Positions 30,253 through 39,646 of a DNA stretch of 64,000 nucleotides are shown one piece after another (positions within the stretch are counted from its first letter, which is position 1; every line of letters starts with the position of its first letter). Made by a program: the position numbers and the translations under genes. Source of the DNA: Guyparkeria hydrothermalis (GTDB lineage: Bacteria > Pseudomonadota > Gammaproteobacteria > Halothiobacillales > Halothiobacillaceae); the NCBI RefSeq assembly GCF_023555375.1, contig NZ_JAJSEE010000001.1:434001-498000 (forward strand), written 5' to 3'. The notes beneath the pieces are model-generated. The model did not search any database. It saw only the letters and a list, made by a program, of their open reading frames with translations, and was not told the DNA's origin.

Positions 30253-30508
30253 GGATCAGGGAACTCCGGTCAATGGGTCGGCTAACGGCATGCGGGTCGG
30301 GGAATTCCGAGCGTCCTTGATCGTCCCTTCGGCAAAACGGTTCGCATCCTACCGAATCAGGCGGTGAGACACACCCCTCGCCCCGACGTTCCCCCGATGA
30401 CGGTGCCGGGCATCGTTGCCATCGAACCGGATCAACCCGGCTAGACTGGTCGTGAGGGCGAACAGAACGCCCGGCGACCACGCCCCGGCACGGAGGAGCC
30501 CCGCAATC

Positions 30509-33505
30509 ATGTCCGGCCTTGTCACCTCGACACTCGCCCCGGCGAGACGCCCCCGTCGCGCGCCCCTCCGCGCCGCGGTGGTCGCGCTGGCCTTGTTGCT
30601 CCTCGGCTCCATGATCCCCGGCCAGGCGCCCCGCGCCGACGAGGCGGCGGCCGCGCCGAGCCTGGCGGAAATGCGCGACTGGATCGAGGCGATGAAGGCC
30701 GCCCCGCGCGGCCCCTTCACGCGGATTCGCTGGTTCTGCGAGGACGGCACGATCCTGCCGCCCCAACCCTTTGCCTGCCGGGCTCACGGCGGCGGCATCC
30801 AGCACGGCGAGTGGAGCGAGCGCACGCAGGCCATCCGCGCCCAGGGATACCCGCTCGCCACGCTGCTCGCCGAACTCGAGCCGGCCGACTATCTCGGCCC
30901 CGACGGGCAACATGAACGGCTCCGTCAGATCCTGATCGAGCGCTTCCTGGTGCGCGCCGACGACGGCTGGGTCTTCCGCCGCGCGCGCTACTACCGCGGC
31001 GCGATCCAGCTCGAGGACGAGACCCGCCAGTCGCGCGAGCTGTTGCTTGCCTTGGCCGACGATCCCTGGTGGCAAGCGCCCGACCGGTTCCTGCTGCTGC
31101 GCGAGGCCGTGCGCCTGCTGCCGGTCGATGGCGACCACCCCGCGGCCACCCGCGCCCGGGACCTTGCCATCGAGGTCGCCGAGGCCGACCCGGGCTTCCA
31201 GGAGCTGCGCATCAAGCTCCACGGCATGCCGGATGCCGGCGACATCCAGCGCGTGCGCGACTACGCGAAAGCCAACCGCGACCCGGCACTCGACGCCCCA
31301 CTGGCCGAGCTCGCCGGGGCGCTCGAGACGCTCTACGCGCCGCGAGCCGCGGTCGACCGCCTGCGCGCCCTGGGCGAACACGCCCCGGACGACCGCCTGC
31401 GCGGCGTACTGCTCGAGGCGGCGGACCGACTCGAGCACAGCGCCTCCCTGACCGATCGGCTGGCCGAAACCGGCCGGATCGCGGGCGCCCTGCGCGAACG
31501 CATCGAGACGAACACCCGTTCGCCGGCGGCAACCCTGCGCCTACTTCAGGCGAGCCTCGCCCTGGAACAGGAAGGCTTCGCAGTCGCCAGCCGGCTGGTC
31601 GAACGTAACGCGGACACGGCCGCCAGCCGCCGCGAGCAGCTGACGTGGCTCCGCGCCCTGGGCGAAAGCCTGTACGGCGCGGGCCTGCTGTCGGCACGCC
31701 AATGGCGGCATCTGGCCACCGCGATCGACGGACTGCTCGAGGGGCCATCACCACCCGCCTCGCGATACGCCACCGAACTGGCGTACCTCGCCCGCGTCCC
31801 CGGCTGGGCACAGCGCGCGCTCGGCTTTCATTTCGATCGTGCCATCGAGCGGTGGGCCGACCTGACGCCAATGGTCAGGCACTTCACCCCGGATCGCCTG
31901 CGCGACAGCCCGTTGCTTTTCTACAGCCGCCTGCTCGACGGCCTGCGCGACGATGCCGGCCGACTGACCGATACCCGACATCGTCTGTTCGGGGCGTCGC
32001 TCGCCACCGGGCTGCGCCCGCTCAATCCGGGCCTGGCCCGCGGCGTGCTGCACCTCCCCCCGGCCGATGGCGAACCGTTCGACCGTCAAGGCATCTATCT
32101 CCTCCCCGAGACCACCGCCACGCTGCCGCCGGTCGCCGGCATCCTCACCCGCGGCGAAGGCAACTCGCTCTCGCACGTCCAACTGCTCGCGCGCAACCTC
32201 GGCATTCCCAATGTGGTGGTCGAGGACGACCTGGTCGATCGCATCGAGGATCATGTCGGCGACCGGGTGGTGCTGGCCGTCAGCCCGGGCGGGCGCGTGG
32301 AGCTGGCACTCGACGGTCCCCGATGGCAACCGATAGCGGGCGACGGCGAACCCGCGACGGACCCGCCGATCGAGCCCGACTGGGACAAGCTCGACCTCGA
32401 CGCCACCGCCCTGCGCCGCCTGCACGACTTGCGTGCCGACGACTCCGGCCGGCAGGTGGGCCCGAAGGCGGCCAACCTCGGCGAGCTGGCGCACCACTAT
32501 CCCGAACAGGTCAGTGCCGGGCTGGCGATCCCGTTCGGCGTCTTCCGCGAGCTGGTCGAGCAGCCGATCGAACCCGGCGGGCCCAGCACGCTCGACTGGC
32601 TGGCCGGCGAATACCGGCAACTGCGCCAGATCGAGGACAGCGGGACACGTGAACGCGCCACCGCCGAGGTGCTCGAGCGCATGCGTCGCTGGCTCGCGAC
32701 GGCCGAGTTGCCCGGCGATTTCCGCGAGCGGTTGCGCGAGCGGCTGACCGAGACCTTCGGCTCGGCGGACACCGCCGGCGTGTTCGTGCGCAGCGACACC
32801 AACGTCGAGGACCTGCCCGGATTCACCGGCGCGGGGCTCAATCGCACCGTGGCCAACGTGGTCGGCTTCGAGGCGATCATCGGGTCCATCCGCGAGGTGT
32901 GGGCCTCGCCGTTCACCGAGCGCGCTTATGCCTGGCGCCAGGCCCACATGGAGGCGCCGGAACACGTCTACCCGGCGGTCCTGCTGCAAGCCACGGTGCC
33001 GGTGGACAAGTCGGGCGTATTGGTCACCACCGACCTCGACACTGGCAATCGGCAATGGCTGAGCATCGCGGCCAGCGAGGGGCTGGGCGGCGCGGTCGAG
33101 GGGCAGGCCGCCGAGGAATTGCGCGTCCACCGGGACAGCGGCGCCGTGCGCCTGCTCAGTCAGGCCACGGCCCCCACCCGGCTAGCCCCGGGCCCGGGGG
33201 GTGGCGTTCAGCGACTCCCCGCCGACGGCCCGTCGACCCTGCTTTCGTCGGCGGAGATCGACAAACTGCGCGCCCTGGCCGATGACGTCGAGGCACGCGG
33301 ATTGCTGGCGACCGATGCGACCGGCCAGCACCCGGTGGCCGACATCGAGTTCGGTTTCGTCGACGGTCGACTGGCCCTGTTCCAGATCCGCCCGTTGGTG
33401 GAAAACCGGCGTGCCCGCGCCGATGCCTACCTGGTTGCGCTGGACCGGCCGATCCTCGATACCGCGGGCGAATCGGTCGATCTAGCGCGCCCACCACGGC
33501 GATAA
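30509..33505 (+). CDS. Exported PPDK/glucan-dikinase-like protein (phospho-His plus ATP-grasp domains)
   Basis: From ATG at 30509 (GGAGGAG upstream) the 998-residue product begins with an Arg-rich n-region, a hydrophobic stretch (about 20-36) and a PRA/DE cleavage-like site, so it looks exported. A helical region of unknown function (45-500) is followed by a swivelling phospho-His domain with GEGNSLSHVQLLARNLGIP near residue 560, then a PPDK/PEP-synthase ATP-binding domain (about 650-980) with VGPKAANLGEL, VRSDTNVEDLPGFTGAGLN, WASPFTERAYAWR and a final FQIRPL. The His domain precedes the ATP domain, as in glucan water dikinases, and the C-terminal TIM barrel of PPDK is missing. All expected nucleotide-binding residues appear kept. 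Substrate and the source of ATP outside the cytosol are unknown. Confidence 0.82.
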   Translation: MSGLVTSTLAPARRPRRAPLRAAVVALALLLLGSMIPGQAPRADEAAAAPSLAEMRDWIEAMKAAPRGPFTRIRWFCEDGTILPPQPFACRAHGGGIQHGEWSERTQAIRAQGYPLATLLAELEPADYLGPDGQHERLRQILIERFLVRADDGWVFRRARYYRGAIQLEDETRQSRELLLALADDPWWQAPDRFLLLREAVRLLPVDGDHPAATRARDLAIEVAEADPGFQELRIKLHGMPDAGDIQRVRDYAKANRDPALDAPLAELAGALETLYAPRAAVDRLRALGEHAPDDRLRGVLLEAADRLEHSASLTDRLAETGRIAGALRERIETNTRSPAATLRLLQASLALEQEGFAVASRLVERNADTAASRREQLTWLRALGESLYGAGLLSARQWRHLATAIDGLLEGPSPPASRYATELAYLARVPGWAQRALGFHFDRAIERWADLTPMVRHFTPDRLRDSPLLFYSRLLDGLRDDAGRLTDTRHRLFGASLATGLRPLNPGLARGVLHLPPADGEPFDRQGIYLLPETTATLPPVAGILTRGEGNSLSHVQLLARNLGIPNVVVEDDLVDRIEDHVGDRVVLAVSPGGRVELALDGPRWQPIAGDGEPATDPPIEPDWDKLDLDATALRRLHDLRADDSGRQVGPKAANLGELAHHYPEQVSAGLAIPFGVFRELVEQPIEPGGPSTLDWLAGEYRQLRQIEDSGTRERATAEVLERMRRWLATAELPGDFRERLRERLTETFGSADTAGVFVRSDTNVEDLPGFTGAGLNRTVANVVGFEAIIGSIREVWASPFTERAYAWRQAHMEAPEHVYPAVLLQATVPVDKSGVLVTTDLDTGNRQWLSIAASEGLGGAVEGQAAEELRVHRDSGAVRLLSQATAPTRLAPGPGGGVQRLPADGPSTLLSSAEIDKLRALADDVEARGLLATDATGQHPVADIEFGFVDGRLALFQIRPLVENRRARADAYLVALDRPILDTAGESVDLARPPRR

Positions 33506-33550
33506 CACGACACGCGGCCGGAACCGGTTTCACTGGCCTATGCTCGAGAC

Positions 33551-34831
33551 ATGAACACCATCCGCACACCCGCCAAACCCACGGCAGCCATCGGCCTGGC
33601 AGCACTGCTCGCCGGCCTGGCCGTTGGCGGTGCCGCGCAGGCCTACCCCATCGATGCCGCCGATCAGACCGGCATCGAGCGCCTGGAAGGCTATCGCCTT
33701 GCGAGCCAGGGCGAGATCGCGGGCAACCGCCTGCCACCCGGGGCCCTGCTCGATCGCGACCAGATCCAACTGCGCCTGGCCGACCGGCCGGGCTTCGAGC
33801 TGCCCGCCAGCGACCCCGGGCTGACCCGCCGGGTGGTCGACCTGCTCGGGGCCGAGGCCTCCCGCTACAGCGTCAGCGTGCTCGAGATCAGCGACCCGGA
33901 CCGGCCGCGCTACGCCGAGCACAACGGCCTGACCAAACGCACGCCCGGCAGCGTCGGCAAGGTCATGCTGGTCACGGCCCTCTTGCAGGCGATCGCCGAC
34001 CGTCATCCCGAGGACATCGAGGCGCGCGAGCGCCTGCTGCGCGAGACGACGGTCACCGCCGACGCGTTCATCCAGTGGGACAGTCACACGGTGCCGTTCT
34101 GGGACGGGGAAAGGAAACGTTTCACGCGTCGCCCGCTGCGGGTCGGCGATACCGCGAATCTCTGGACCTACCTCGACTGGGCCCTGTCGGCCAGCTCGAA
34201 CGCCGCGGCCAGCGCCGTAATGAAGGAGTTGATGCTGCTTCACCACTTCGGCGAGGACTACCCGGTGCCGGTCGAGCGCGAGGCGGAGCTGTTCGACCGC
34301 CCACCGGCCGAACGGCGCGACATCCTGCTCGAGGCACTGGTCGATCCGATCGCGCGCAACGGGCTGGACACCGAGCAGCTGCGCCAGGGGGCGTTCTTCA
34401 CCAGCGGCGGCAAGGCACGGGTCTCGGGCACCAACAGCCTAAGCACCACCCGGGAGCTGATGCGACTACTGGTGAAGATGGAAAAGGGGGAGCTGGTCGA
34501 CGAGTGGTCGAGCCGGGAACTGAAACGCCTGCTGTACATGACGCAGCGGCGCATTCGCTACGCCTCGTCACCGGCACTCAGCGAGGCGGCGGTCTACTTC
34601 AAGTCCGGTTCGCTCTACAAGTGCGACCGGGAGGCGAATCCAGATTGCGGCAAGTACCGCGGCAACGTCTACAACTACATGCACTCGGTGGCGATCGTCG
34701 AGCACCCGGCCGGCGACCCGGAACGGGTCTACCTGGTGACGATGACCTCCAACGTGCTCAACGTGAACTCGGCGGTGGCCCACCAGACGTTCGCCACCCG
34801 CCTGCACCGTCTGCTGCAGGCCGGGGAGTGA
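33551..34831 (+). CDS. Periplasmic serine hydrolase, class A beta-lactamase-like (first paralogue)
   Basis: The 426-residue product has a signal peptide ending AAQA-YP (about residue 31). The serine-acylating fold is marked by SVGK (SxxK), SSNAA (SxN) and KSGS (KTG-like) motifs in order. It is longer than true class A beta-lactamases (about 290 residues), with an extra N-terminal region and insertions, so a D,D-peptidase or other amidase role is as likely as drug hydrolysis. It follows the dikinase-like gene by 45 bp on the same strand and shares a SDPDRPRYAEHNG block with the gene at 34833-35756, showing that the two are paralogues. Confidence 0.85.
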   Translation: MNTIRTPAKPTAAIGLAALLAGLAVGGAAQAYPIDAADQTGIERLEGYRLASQGEIAGNRLPPGALLDRDQIQLRLADRPGFELPASDPGLTRRVVDLLGAEASRYSVSVLEISDPDRPRYAEHNGLTKRTPGSVGKVMLVTALLQAIADRHPEDIEARERLLRETTVTADAFIQWDSHTVPFWDGERKRFTRRPLRVGDTANLWTYLDWALSASSNAAASAVMKELMLLHHFGEDYPVPVEREAELFDRPPAERRDILLEALVDPIARNGLDTEQLRQGAFFTSGGKARVSGTNSLSTTRELMRLLVKMEKGELVDEWSSRELKRLLYMTQRRIRYASSPALSEAAVYFKSGSLYKCDREANPDCGKYRGNVYNYMHSVAIVEHPAGDPERVYLVTMTSNVLNVNSAVAHQTFATRLHRLLQAGE

Positions 34832-34832
34832 G

Positions 34833-35756
34833 CTATTGACCGGCCGCTGTGTCCAGGCGCGGGTCCAGGCCGGCGGTGCGGATCGGTGCGTCCATGATCA
34901 GGCCGTCGAGCTCGACGATCAGGCGCTTGAGCCACTCGCCGCCACTGGGATTCTGCGCCAGCCCGACGGCGATGTAGGTCCGGCCGTCGTGCTCGACGAT
35001 GGCACTGTCGGCATGCCAGTCGCGCCAGGTGCCGGACTTGCGATAGATCTGCGCCTCCGGCACCTCGCCGAGCAGGCCACCGACGAACTTGTGCGAGATG
35101 GCGGGGTCGCCCAGGATCCGCTTCATCTCGCGCGAGGACTGCGGCGAGACCAGCTGGCCGGTCTCGAGCAGGTAGTAGAACCGTGCCACCTGGAAGGCCG
35201 TCGCCCCATGGGAGAGATGATGCAGCGGGTCGCGCTGGTAGGCCGTGCCTCGGCCGTATTCCTTGCCGACCCACAGGCCGCCGTTGAGCGACTCGTCGTA
35301 GAGGCGGTAGCGGGGCGAGCGCAGCAGGTCGTTGATGTAATCGCGCCCCACGCGGCGGATCATCTCGGTCGCGGCCGTGTTCGACGAATTGCGGATCATG
35401 CGGGTCATCAGGTCGCGTGTCTCGTCGTCGAGCGCGATCGCCCCCTCGTCGATCCGCTGGAAGGCCGCCAGCAGAATGGCGATCTTGGGCAGGCTGGCCG
35501 CGTAGAGCATGGCATCGCCATTGACCTCGGCCAGTCGCGGTCGGTCGGGGTTCGTGACGTCGACCAGGGCGATGGAAAGCTGGCCGGCCTCGACCGACCC
35601 GCCCAGTTTCAGGGCCTCGAGCCGCTCTTCCAGGCGTGCCTGGAGCGCGGGGTCAGCGGCATCGCGCAGGGCGACGGCATCCGCCGGCAGGGCGGCCTGC
35701 CCGAGGCCCGGCCCGACCGACCAGAAAACAATTACCATCGCCAAACGACGCCACAT
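34833..35756 (-). CDS. Periplasmic serine hydrolase, class A beta-lactamase-like (second paralogue)
   Basis: From ATG at 35756, with GGAGGT 4 nt upstream, the 307-residue product has a signal peptide (about 1-20) and the motifs SLPK (active Ser), SSNTAA and KSGTW. The block TNPDRPRLAEVNG matches its neighbour at 33551-34831. It converges on that gene with a single base between the stop codons, so their transcripts must overlap. Its length is that of class A beta-lactamases, but a match to known resistance enzymes is not evident. An upstream in-frame ATG at 35795 is possible but less well supported. Confidence 0.85.
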   Translation of the reverse strand: MWRRLAMVIVFWSVGPGLGQAALPADAVALRDAADPALQARLEERLEALKLGGSVEAGQLSIALVDVTNPDRPRLAEVNGDAMLYAASLPKIAILLAAFQRIDEGAIALDDETRDLMTRMIRNSSNTAATEMIRRVGRDYINDLLRSPRYRLYDESLNGGLWVGKEYGRGTAYQRDPLHHLSHGATAFQVARFYYLLETGQLVSPQSSREMKRILGDPAISHKFVGGLLGEVPEAQIYRKSGTWRDWHADSAIVEHDGRTYIAVGLAQNPSGGEWLKRLIVELDGLIMDAPIRTAGLDPRLDTAAGQ

Positions 35757-35862
35757 GGCCACCTCCGTACCCGGCGGCTGCCAGGTGAAAAACAAAATTG
35801 CCCTGAACGATACCCCAGAAATGCCGTAGCGTCATGGAGATAGTCTCGTTGAAGGACGCCAG

Positions 35863-37179
35863 GTGACTCGACTGACCGGAACCGAAACCCGCCCGCCAGG
35901 ACCAGTTGGTCCCGGCTTCGGCTCGCGCCACCCGTGGCTGCTGCGGCGCGTGCTGCTGTTCACGAACTTCTTCCTGATCATCGCCGCGGTCTACCACCTC
36001 AAGCCCGCCAGCCGATCACTGTTCCTGAGCGCCCTGGGTGCCGACGCCCTGCCGTACGTCTGGATCGCCACGGCCACGGCCCTGGCCCTGACCATCGGCC
36101 TGTATCACCGCCTGATCGCACATTACTCGCGCATCCACGTGGTCCTGGGCACCTGCGCGCTGGTGATCGCGGTGCTGATCGGCTTCTACCCGTTTCTCAA
36201 CGGCAGCGGCTTCGCCGCGGCGTTCGCCTTCTACGTGTTCGTCGACATGGTCAGCGTGATCCTGGTCGAGCAGTTCTGGAGCCTGACCAACACGATCTTC
36301 TCCACCCGGGAGGGCAAGCGCTGGTATGGCTTCATCGCCACCGGCGGGCTGGTGGGCGGCGTCGCCGGCGGCATGGCCTCGAGTGCCTGGATCAGCCGGG
36401 CGGGGCTGGAGACCATGGACCTGCTGCCGATCGCCGCGGCCATCATCGGCCTGATCGTCGGACTGACCCTGCTGATGGGGCGCTACGGCCTGTACCGGGA
36501 GAAGCCCGGGGTGAGCAACCACGAGGGCCCGTCGACCGGTGACTGGCGGGCCATCCTGCGCCATCGCTACCTCGCCCTGATCGCGCTGATCCTGCTCCTG
36601 GCGCAGATCGCCGAGCCGATCATCGAATACCAGTTCATGAAGGTGGTCGAGGCGACCATCACCGATCGCGACGCGCGCACCGCCTACCTCGGCGCCTTCT
36701 TCGGCGTGCTCAGCGCCGTGGCGATCGGCATCAACCTGCTGATCACGCCCCTGGTTCACCGTTGGCTGGGGGTGCTCGGCGGCCTGTTCGTCCAGCCGAT
36801 CGCGGTGCTGTTCGGCAGCCTCTGGTACCTCTCGCAGGTCACGTTGCAGGCCGGCGCGTTTCTCAAGATCGCCGACCGCGGGCTGTCCTACTCGATCAAC
36901 CGCGCCTCCAAGGAACTCCTCTATGTGCCGATCGCGCCCCTGCTGATGTTCCGCGCCAAGGCCTGGATCGACATGTTCGGCTACCGCCTGTTCAAGGTGG
37001 CCGGCTCGCTGTTGATCCTGCTACTGACCCAGTGGCTGCCGTGGCCGCTGGAGGCCGCCCACCTGGCCTGGGTGGTGGTCGCGATCTGCCTAGCCTGGAT
37101 GGCCGTGCTCGTCCGGCTGGGCCGACGGTACCGCGGCATCCTCGAGCGCGCCGAGGCGCAGGCGGAAGGTCACCCGTAA
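35863..37179 (+). CDS. ATP/ADP-translocase (AAA/Npt) family-like membrane carrier
   Basis: The 438-residue protein has 11-12 transmembrane helices and sequence blocks such as YHLKPASRSLFLSALGADAL, EQFWSLTNTIFSTREGKRW and ADRGLSYSINRASKELLYVP that I associate with the NTP/NDP exchange family of rickettsiae, chlamydiae and plastids and with its free-living bacterial relatives. In free-living bacteria the cargo is unknown. Translation starts at GTG (35863-35865) with AAGGA upstream. It faces the second serine hydrolase gene divergently. Assignment to the broad MFS-like group is firm; nucleotide transport is inference. Confidence 0.75.
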   Translation: MTRLTGTETRPPGPVGPGFGSRHPWLLRRVLLFTNFFLIIAAVYHLKPASRSLFLSALGADALPYVWIATATALALTIGLYHRLIAHYSRIHVVLGTCALVIAVLIGFYPFLNGSGFAAAFAFYVFVDMVSVILVEQFWSLTNTIFSTREGKRWYGFIATGGLVGGVAGGMASSAWISRAGLETMDLLPIAAAIIGLIVGLTLLMGRYGLYREKPGVSNHEGPSTGDWRAILRHRYLALIALILLLAQIAEPIIEYQFMKVVEATITDRDARTAYLGAFFGVLSAVAIGINLLITPLVHRWLGVLGGLFVQPIAVLFGSLWYLSQVTLQAGAFLKIADRGLSYSINRASKELLYVPIAPLLMFRAKAWIDMFGYRLFKVAGSLLILLLTQWLPWPLEAAHLAWVVVAICLAWMAVLVRLGRRYRGILERAEAQAEGHP

Positions 37180-37282: not shown

Positions 37283-38068
37283 TCAGGCGTCGGGGCGCTT
37301 CTGCGTGAAGTGGCCGGTGAGTTCCTGGAAAGCGTTGGTCAGCTCGATCGGCAGCGGGAAGAACACCGAGCTGGTCTTGCCGTTGGTGGACATGTCCGCC
37401 ATGGTCTGCAGGTAGCGCAGCTGCAGGGCCGCCGGGCTGTCCTTCATCATGTCGGCGGCCTGGACCAGCTTCTCGGCGGCCTGCAGCTCGCCCTCGGCGT
37501 GGATGATCTTGGCGCGCCGCTCGCGTTCGGCCTCGGCCTGGCGGGCGATCGCGCGGATCATCGACTCGTCCAGGTCGACGTGCTTGATCTCGACGTTGGT
37601 GACCTTGATGCCCCAGGCGTCCGTCTGCTGGTCCAGGATGCCCTGGATGTCGTTGTTGAGCTTGTCACGCTCGGAGAGCATCTCATCGAGATCATGCTTG
37701 CCGAGCACCGAGCGCAGGGTGGTCTGGGCCAGCTGGCTGGTCGCCGCGTAGTAGTTCTCCACCTGGATCACGGCCCGCTCGGGGTCGACCACCCGGAAGT
37801 AGAGCACCGCGTTGACCCGCACGGTGACGTTGTCTTGCGAGATCACGTCCTGGCTGGGCACGTCCAGCGTGATGATCCGCAGGTCCACCTTGACCATCTG
37901 CTGGATCACCGGGATGACGATGATCAGGCCCGGGCCCTTCACGCGCTGGAATCGCCCCAGGAAAAACACCACGCCACGCTCGTACTCGCGCAGCACCCGG
38001 AGCGACATCGCGATGATCGCGACCAGCACGATCAGCGGTACGATCAGAAATCCGAAATTGCCCAGCAT
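37283..38068 (-). CDS. Slipin/stomatin-like SPFH (band 7) membrane protein
   Basis: The 261-residue product has one N-terminal membrane hairpin or helix (about 3-25), then a band 7 domain with [21 protein letters not shown] and a helical C-terminal part rich in Ala/Glu ([19 protein letters not shown]). Slipins form oligomeric membrane microdomains. ATG at 38068 has GGAGGG 7 nt upstream and is preferred over longer starts. It lies 44 bp downstream of the NfeD-type protease gene, its classic operon partner and probable regulator. Confidence 0.93.
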
Positions 38069-38112
38069 CTGTCTTCCCTCCATGGGCCCAAACGGCCCTT
38101 GCAATGGCGTGT

Positions 38113-39528
38113 CTACTCAATCGGTTCGACGGTCAGGCGCAGGCCGTCAATCGCCACCACCCGAACGGCCTGACCGGCTCGTACGGGGCGGCGGCTGTCG
38201 GCCGTCCACAACTCGCTGTGAACGAACACCCGCCCGGTGCTCTCGAAATCTTCCTTGGCGATGCCCTGCATGCCGATCATCTCCTCGTAACCGGTCGCCG
38301 GGCGTCTGCGACGCACGTCGAGAAACCGTCCCAGCACCCAGATCGAGAAGCCGGCGATCGCAATCGCCACGCCGATGATCAGGGGAAGTGCCACGTTCAG
38401 GTTGGGGTCGTCCCAGAGCATGATGGATCCTGCGGTGAAAGCGGCGAGACCGCCGATGCCGAGCGCGCCGAAACTGGGCACGAACGCCTCGGCAATCATG
38501 AAGATGATGCCGAGCAGGATCAGCGCCAGGCCCGCGTAGTTCAAGGGCATGACCTGCAGGGCGAAGAAGGCCAGGATCAGGGCGATCGAGCCGATCGTGC
38601 CGGGCACGATCGCGCCCGGGTTGGCCAACTCGAAGATGATGCCGTAGATCCCGATCAACAACAGGATATACGCGATGTTGGGGTCGGTGATCACGGCCAG
38701 CAGCTTGGTCCGCCAGTCCGGGTCCTGGCGCACCACCTGGATACCGTCGGTCGACAGGGTTCGGTTCGACCCGTTGACCACCACCTCGCGGCCGTCGAGC
38801 TGAACCAGCAGGTCCGAGAGATCCTCGGCCACCACATCGATGACGTTCTGCTCGAGGGCCTCGCGCGCACCGAGGTTGAATCCTTCACGCACCGCCGACT
38901 CGGCCCAGTCGGCATTCCGATCGTGCCGTTCGGCCAGTCCGCGGATGTAGGCCACCGCGTCCTCGAGCACCTTGCGCTCCATGGCATCGCCGCCGCGACG
39001 TGGCTCGTTCTCCGTTCCTTCGCTAGCCGATTCGGGCTCGCTGGCTTCCTCGTCGCCGCCCTCCTCGGGCGGCGTCATGCCGGGCAGGCCGCCTCCGCCC
39101 ATCTGCACGGGCGTGGCCGAACCGAGGTTGGTCGACGGGGTCATCGCCGCGATGTGCGAGCCGTAGAGGATGTAGGTGCCCGCGCTGGCGGCGCGTGCCC
39201 CGGCCGGATGGACGTAGCTTGCCACTGGCACGTCGGCCTGCAGGATGGCCTGGATCATCGACCGCATACTGGTATCGAGCCCACCGGGGGTGTCGAGCTG
39301 CAACACGACCAGCTCGGCACGGCGCTCTTCGGCCGATTCGATGCCGCGGATCACGTAGTCGGCGGTCGCCGGCGTGATCGCGTCCTGCACCGTCAGCAGC
39401 ACGGCCTCGCGTGCCCCTTGCTGCGCCGCGGCCACCGCCAGCCAGATCAACCCGGCCAGGATGAACAGCGGCCATGCCAGCCGGCGCAAGGCAACGCGAG
39501 ATGGACGTTTTGGAAACGCAACCTGCAT
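38113..39528 (-). CDS. NfeD family membrane-bound ClpP-class serine protease
   Basis: The long-form NfeD protein (471 residues) has an N-terminal membrane segment, a ClpP-class protease domain (about 35-230) with [14 protein letters not shown] and the catalytic-Ser block [10 protein letters not shown], four to five membrane helices (about 255-390) and a C-terminal OB-fold NfeD domain (about 400-470). An acidic/Gly-rich insert ([17 protein letters not shown]) interrupts the protease domain. Long NfeD proteins cleave the C-terminus of partner stomatins in archaea. ATG at 39528 has a GGGGGAG site; the open frame runs further up without support. Confidence 0.92.
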
Positions 39529-39646
39529 GGGGACTCCCCCTTCCCATCCGGCAATGGACGGCGTCTGCCGCCGGGACATGGCAACAGCATAGGTCATTGG
39601 CCGGCCCAAGGCAGCCAGGGCAGCCGGGTCGGCACCCACCACGAGA

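Follow-up and report, generated by a model that had tools for sequence, protein, structure and literature searches.

Four neighbouring genes of Guyparkeria hydrothermalis, encoding a secreted dikinase-like protein (DIK), two secreted SxxK enzymes (SH1 and SH2) and a carrier of the ATP/ADP translocase family (TLC), almost certainly make up one undescribed cell-envelope system. The genes are located at positions 30509-37179 of the analysed window (a 64,000-nucleotide stretch, part of contig 1 of the 2.43-Mb genome) in the order DIK (+), SH1 (+), SH2 (-) and TLC (+), and form a module of two separable yet co-occurring pairs, DIK-SH1 and SH2-TLC. Each protein comes from a known superfamily, and nothing corresponding to all four parts together was found described: the literature searched, which included few subscription papers and no preprints, contained no description of this gene set. 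The preceding sequence-only reading of this DNA knew of no pathway with such a set. Its description of the locus as four neighbouring genes was accurate: the coordinates match, the dikinase starts at 30509, and all four proteins exceed the curated Pfam cut-offs; the strand changes noticed inside the locus are real (Table 1).

Table 1. Features of the four-gene locus in positions of the window
Feature	Positions	Strand	Basis
DIK, secreted dikinase, 998 aa	30509..33505	+	Pfam PPDK_N, PEP-utilizers; family alignment; AlphaFold2 model
DIK signal peptide and linker, residues 1-45, hydrophobic segment AAVVALALLLLGSMIPG	30509..30643	+	Family N-termini; model
DIK N-terminal domain, mostly helical, residues 46-492, presumed acceptor-binding	30644..31984	+	Alignment; model
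DIK phosphohistidine (swivelling) domain, residues 492-610	31982..32338	+	PEP-utilizers; structural match
DIK PPDK-type ATP-grasp domain, residues 631-975	32399..33433	+	Structural match; residue alignment
SH1, secreted SxxK enzyme	33551..34831	+	Beta-lactamase2; invariant motifs; signal segment
SH2, secreted SxxK enzyme	34833..35795	-	Beta-lactamase2; invariant motifs; signal segment
SH2/TLC intergenic gap, 67 bp, divergent genes	35796..35862	.	Sequence
TLC, ATP/ADP translocase family carrier (PF03219), module subtype A	35863..37179	+	Pfam; family profile

The best start of DIK is an ATG codon preceded by the ribosome-binding site GGAGGAG at 30492-30498, and SH1 starts 46 bp past the DIK end on the same strand. 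The 67 bp that separate SH2 from the divergently oriented TLC probably serve both genes as a regulatory region; a simple scan revealed no sigma-70-type site in them. The upstream BCCT and dienelactone-hydrolase genes, as well as the downstream SPFH and NfeD genes, were considered as further members and rejected: only Guyparkeria-like loci have them next to the module, and they are not conserved in other families. Together, SPFH (37283-38104) and NfeD (38113-39642) make up a gene pair of the typical kind.

Relatives of DIK were detected in Guyparkeria, Thioalkalivibrio, Mariprofundus, Desulfuromonas, Woeseiaceae, Acidobacteria and others among the named genomes. With few exceptions SH1 adjoins DIK where the contig allows, SH2 and TLC usually lying alongside; all four genes stand together in 35 loci belonging to at least 17 families and arranged in six gene orders, around which no further conserved neighbour was found. 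In an even sampling of Gammaproteobacteria (369 genomes) DIK was present in 33 genomes of about 25 families. SH1 was encoded in all 33 of these versus 3 of the 336 DIK-negative genomes; of the three latter cases, two were partial matches and the third lay at a contig edge. The four proteins diverge in a correlated manner when compared pairwise (r 0.77-0.93, permuted maxima not exceeding 0.44), to which shared organismal history contributes. The grouping, which the sequence-only reading had made dependent on genomic support and on the genes not being scattered in relatives, has thus withstood the neighbourhood analysis, and the four-gene loci together with the co-occurrence take it far beyond chance. 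Adjacency by chance or by common ancestry only, with which the strand changes within the locus would agree, is extremely improbable in view of the many families and gene orders, the perfect co-occurrence of SH1, the co-occurrence retained when the genes are unlinked, and the correlated divergence. Moreover, the strand changes (+ + - +) are explained by the existence of two separable pairs. Two other explanations were tried and rejected: plasmid-borne spread of the module (no match among 72,556 plasmids) and phage defence (no PADLOC model matched by any of the four proteins).

The division into two pairs follows from the genomes in which SH2 and TLC are not linked to DIK and are still carried side by side (G090, G113, G182, G193, G216, G314, G372). 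The SH2-TLC pair moves as a unit, either in an operon or divergently, and TLC is tied to SH2 more tightly than to DIK. Genes of the PF03219 family as a whole were detected in 27 of 30 DIK-positive versus 2 of 20 DIK-negative genomes (Fisher 1.2e-8, uncorrected for phylogeny). This contrast weakens with a sensitive TLC family profile, which recovered distant TLC-like proteins (25-215 bits) in 12 of 37 DIK-negative genomes, and for this reason the co-occurrence of TLC is claimed here on module-type scores: in none of the 37 DIK-negative genomes was a module-type TLC (at least 270 bits) detected, no score exceeding 215 bits, nor was a module-type SH2 (1e-20). TLC was present in all 17 Mariprofundus-like genomes. 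In the complete genome G600 a lone secreted DIK relative occurs, with SH1, SH2 and TLC not detected, and in G449 DIK is accompanied by SH1 only, with TLC and SH2 not detected. The DIK proteins of these two genomes are the most divergent of the survey (579 and 741 bits); since both genomes lack TLC, DIK relatives do not strictly need this carrier.

Several individual loci deviate from the common arrangement. A minimal case is the lone secreted DIK relative at L087:7057-9969, from a gammaproteobacterium whose complete genome has no SH1, SH2 or TLC. In L037, L039 and L080 DIK is split into two frames or pieces, owing either to assembly errors or to decay of the copies. In two related genomes DIK and SH1 are separated by a gene (L065:10348-13059 and L071:10701-13421) whose product of about 905 aa begins like a lipoprotein; the L065 copy contains TPR repeats. 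In the Mariprofundus-like loci L090, L091 and L092 two SH2 copies flank TLC. A YkuD L,D-transpeptidase gene beside SH2 in one Mariprofundus genome (L032:15302-15790) gives a weak hint at peptidoglycan.

Judging by its sequence, DIK is a new secreted branch of the known dikinase superfamily. It matches the Pfam families PPDK_N (7.2e-31) and PEP-utilizers (1.1e-5), located at residues 680-1003 and 562-619, respectively, in the numbering of a longer, 1029-aa reading of the gene. The predicted order is signal peptide, N-terminal domain, phosphohistidine domain and ATP-grasp domain, no PEP-utilising C-terminal barrel family being matched. Of 28 family members, 25 showed a hydrophobic N-terminal segment; the exceptions include sequences whose starts are uncertain or truncated. 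In the AlphaFold2 model (mean pLDDT 84.8, with the linker 34-45 of low confidence) the ATP-grasp half resembles rifampin phosphotransferase (Rph; 5hv1, Z 31.6) and PEP synthase (2ols, Z 30.2), and residues 492-610 match the His domains of Enzyme I and Rph with Z of about 10. The catalytic-type His556 (32174-32176) lies within the motif SH[VI]QLLARN, its column being invariant in the family alignment, while K653, R761, E947, Q959 and R961 align with the ATP-site residues of Rph. In relatives with identity down to 34% these residues and the histidine vary little or not at all, i.e., the set that defines the dikinase superfamily is intact in DIK. Such conservation is unlike that of a typical pseudoenzyme, and it makes improbable the explanation that DIK is a non-catalytic, ATP-sensing or structural envelope protein regulating SH1, even though enzyme scaffolds are known to have given rise to signal proteins and DIK and SH1 behave as an obligate pair.

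The N-terminal domain of DIK (about 445 residues) was folded alone with pLDDT of 90.3, and no known family or fold could be assigned to it: no Pfam family exceeded the cut-off, Foldseek gave no confident PDB match (best E 0.28), and VIA-align recovered single helical stretches only, with Z of at most 10.3, under the guide value for helical models. Its invariant positions include W75, C77, D79, G80, C90, G94-G96, R217, R234, H238 and R374. Two cysteines are thus invariant, and so are many arginine, histidine and acidic positions. On account of these residues, the domain is likely the acceptor site.

Among the known enzymes, the plant glucan dikinases GWD and PWD appear closest to DIK in layout. 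Like DIK, they have an acceptor part followed by the phosphohistidine domain and, C-terminally, an ATP-grasp of the PPDK type, and they have no PEP/pyruvate barrel, and their conserved catalytic histidine (PMC12892837) has its counterpart in DIK. In contrast to them, DIK is bacterial and predicted to be exported, its N-terminal domain is different, and partners of this kind are not described for GWD; starch-binding domains (CBM45, CBM20) were not detected in 21 N-terminal domains of the DIK family at E up to 1. Rph and PEP synthase have the ATP-grasp first and carry no signal peptide. DIK is similar to them in the ATP-grasp fold, the ATP-site residues and the His domain, but contains neither the rifampin domain nor the PEP/pyruvate barrel; its domain order differs from that of Rph (ATP-grasp, rifampin, His), and the NCBIfam Rph model scored 102 bits versus the cut-off of 999. 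Nevertheless, DIK might modify a small extracellular molecule (a nutrient, toxin or antibiotic) in the way the cytoplasmic rifampin phosphotransferase does, with SH1 and SH2 hydrolysing compounds of the same class. The ATP half is indeed closest to rifampin phosphotransferases and HpeI structures, and the N-terminal domain, rich in invariant charged residues, looks like a binding site. Two PBP-like enzymes and a carrier are, however, unexpected in a simple drug-inactivation unit, and DIK, whose known hosts are environmental chemolithotrophs and environmental MAGs, was not found on plasmids, so we consider this explanation improbable.

SH1 and SH2 match the Beta-lactamase2 family of Pfam with E-values of 1.9e-7 and 2.8e-24, respectively, and are distantly related to each other. 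The catalytic motifs are S134VGK137, S215SN217 and K351SG353 in SH1, where C358 and C366 are also invariant, and S101LPK104, S137SN139 and K253SG255 in SH2; SxxK, SxN and KSG are invariant in both family alignments. Signal segments were recognized in all 27 SH1 and in 23 of 25 SH2 family members. No solved structure matching SH1 by sequence was found, and the SH2 family profile matched Tll2115 weakly (2.4e-4), a protein which we take to be PBP-A, a penicillin-binding protein. Both enzymes have the three motifs and the signal peptide in common with PBP-A and with class A beta-lactamase-like PBPs. They differ from these proteins in that the similarity is low and that SH2 possesses no invariant Glu in the stretch from SxN to KSG (compare E166 of class A enzymes); in SH1 the near-invariant E311 is distant from the spacing expected for the class A deacylating glutamate.

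TLC matches PF03219 with E of 6.7e-16 (58.6 bits versus the cut-off of 21), and its family profile matches the ADP,ATP carriers of Chlamydia (9j3n, 8.8e-24) and Arabidopsis (9j3j, 1.1e-19). Four charged residues, K155, E245, E385 and K527, are essential in AtNTT1 (PMC10654386), and an ATP-site role has been attributed to K527, an ADP-site role to K155 (PMC3306366). The carrier of the window has W67, D128, E255 and K378 at these positions, i.e., E385 and K527 are kept, E245 is conservatively replaced with Asp, K155 is replaced with Trp, and the full set of AtNTT1 is not present. The combination W/D/E/K characterizes nearly all subtype-A carriers, K155 being Trp in every one; subtype-B carriers, encoded in other loci, have A/G/D/D or S/G/E/D and no K527. 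Nucleotide transport by TLC is unproven because of the Trp in subtype A and of the loss of most of the residues in subtype B. TLC belongs to the same family as the NTTs of plastids, Chlamydia and Rickettsia and the uncharacterised NTTs of free-living bacteria, with E385 and K527 preserved, and is distinguished from them by the missing K155, the free-living host and the linkage to a secreted dikinase. Major et al. (PMC5381601) surveyed the NTTs, which are known mainly for nucleotides, and recorded them also in free-living bacteria, Gamma- and Zetaproteobacteria among them, along with NTT-HEAT fusions of unknown function; the accessible part of the survey makes no mention of a genomic context like the present one. 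Large second TLC-like proteins adjoin the module in several genomes (L060:13430-15889, L061:568-2757, L063:1245-3500, L043:1124-3901, L051:15053-18136, L067:14170-15399 and L094:3706-4854). Of those scanned, four contain HEAT repeats and that of L051 a cyclic-nucleotide-binding domain; the HEAT-bearing ones correspond to the NTT-HEAT type described in PMC5381601, and their link to the module may hint at a role.

The signal peptides support the view that DIK, SH1 and SH2 act outside the cytoplasm. Since the dikinase motifs of the presumably exported DIK are intact, it would use ATP outside the cytoplasm or else an unexpected donor, and TLC, as the sole co-occurring carrier and a member of a nucleotide-exchanger family, offers the simplest reading as the supplier. 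We tentatively propose, at somewhat less than even probability, that TLC brings ATP through the inner membrane, that DIK transfers a phosphoryl group through its histidine to an envelope acceptor, and that SH1 and SH2 process the wall. After export, DIK would bind ATP in the ATP-grasp domain and pass a phosphoryl group via His556 of the swivelling domain to an acceptor bound by the N-terminal domain, and SH1, as a secreted SxxK acyl-enzyme, would act on the same substrate or on one linked to it. In the second part of the module (SH2-TLC), TLC would reside in the inner membrane and feed nucleotide to the periplasm, probably ATP in exchange for the spent nucleotide, and SH2 would be the second secreted SxxK enzyme; speculatively, AMP, a dikinase product, rather than ADP as the counter-substrate would fit the lost ADP-site lysine. 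We infer ATP use outside the cytoplasm, the direction and substrate of TLC, which acceptor is used, and the action of the hydrolases on peptidoglycan. As the acceptor, peptidoglycan is favoured only because two PBP-like enzymes accompany DIK. Osmoregulated periplasmic glucan, by comparison, is hardly a likely acceptor for the module in general: MdoG (PF04349) was detected in 6 of 35 DIK-positive genomes and not found in the genome of the window. To our knowledge, no bacterial system exports ATP for a periplasmic kinase, and none feeding such a kinase was found in the literature search.

The closer association of SH2 and TLC suggests the main rival explanation, in which SH2 is the protein served by TLC: DIK would phosphorylate a periplasmic acceptor with a nucleotide obtained from elsewhere, and TLC would carry a solute other than ATP. 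Its cargo might be something released by SH2, such as a peptide, a muropeptide or a fragment linked to a nucleotide, re-imported as muropeptides are by AmpG. We regard this explanation as somewhat less probable than the mechanism proposed above. It is favoured by the mobility of SH2-TLC as a unit, by the missing K155 along with the absence of K527 from subtype B, and by DIK occurring without TLC in G600 and G449. On the other hand, module-type TLC was never found without DIK in the sample, subtype A keeps K527 and E385, and the carrier family is known mainly for nucleotides (PMC5381601). Consequently, of the periplasmic system suggested by the sequence-only reading, the conserved co-occurring set and the signal peptides of DIK, SH1 and SH2 are supported, whereas the supply of ATP by the carrier (K155 being Trp, E245 conservatively Asp and two of the four AtNTT1 residues kept), a polymer as the acceptor and an action of the hydrolases on peptidoglycan stay conjectural. 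The complete proposal, in which an NTT-family exchanger delivers ATP to the periplasm for a secreted dikinase that phosphorylates an envelope component and is coupled to two PBP-like enzymes, is in our estimation possible, though rather doubtful.

Phosphorylation in the periplasm is generally held to use lipid-linked donors, since this compartment contains no ATP. The assumption of an ATP-free periplasm becomes testable through this association of a secreted, apparently intact dikinase with a carrier related to ATP/ADP exchangers. In addition, SH1 and SH2 define two conserved families of secreted SxxK enzymes. The module is widespread and provides a functional context for the NTT carriers of free-living bacteria, the role of which the NTT survey left open (PMC5381601).
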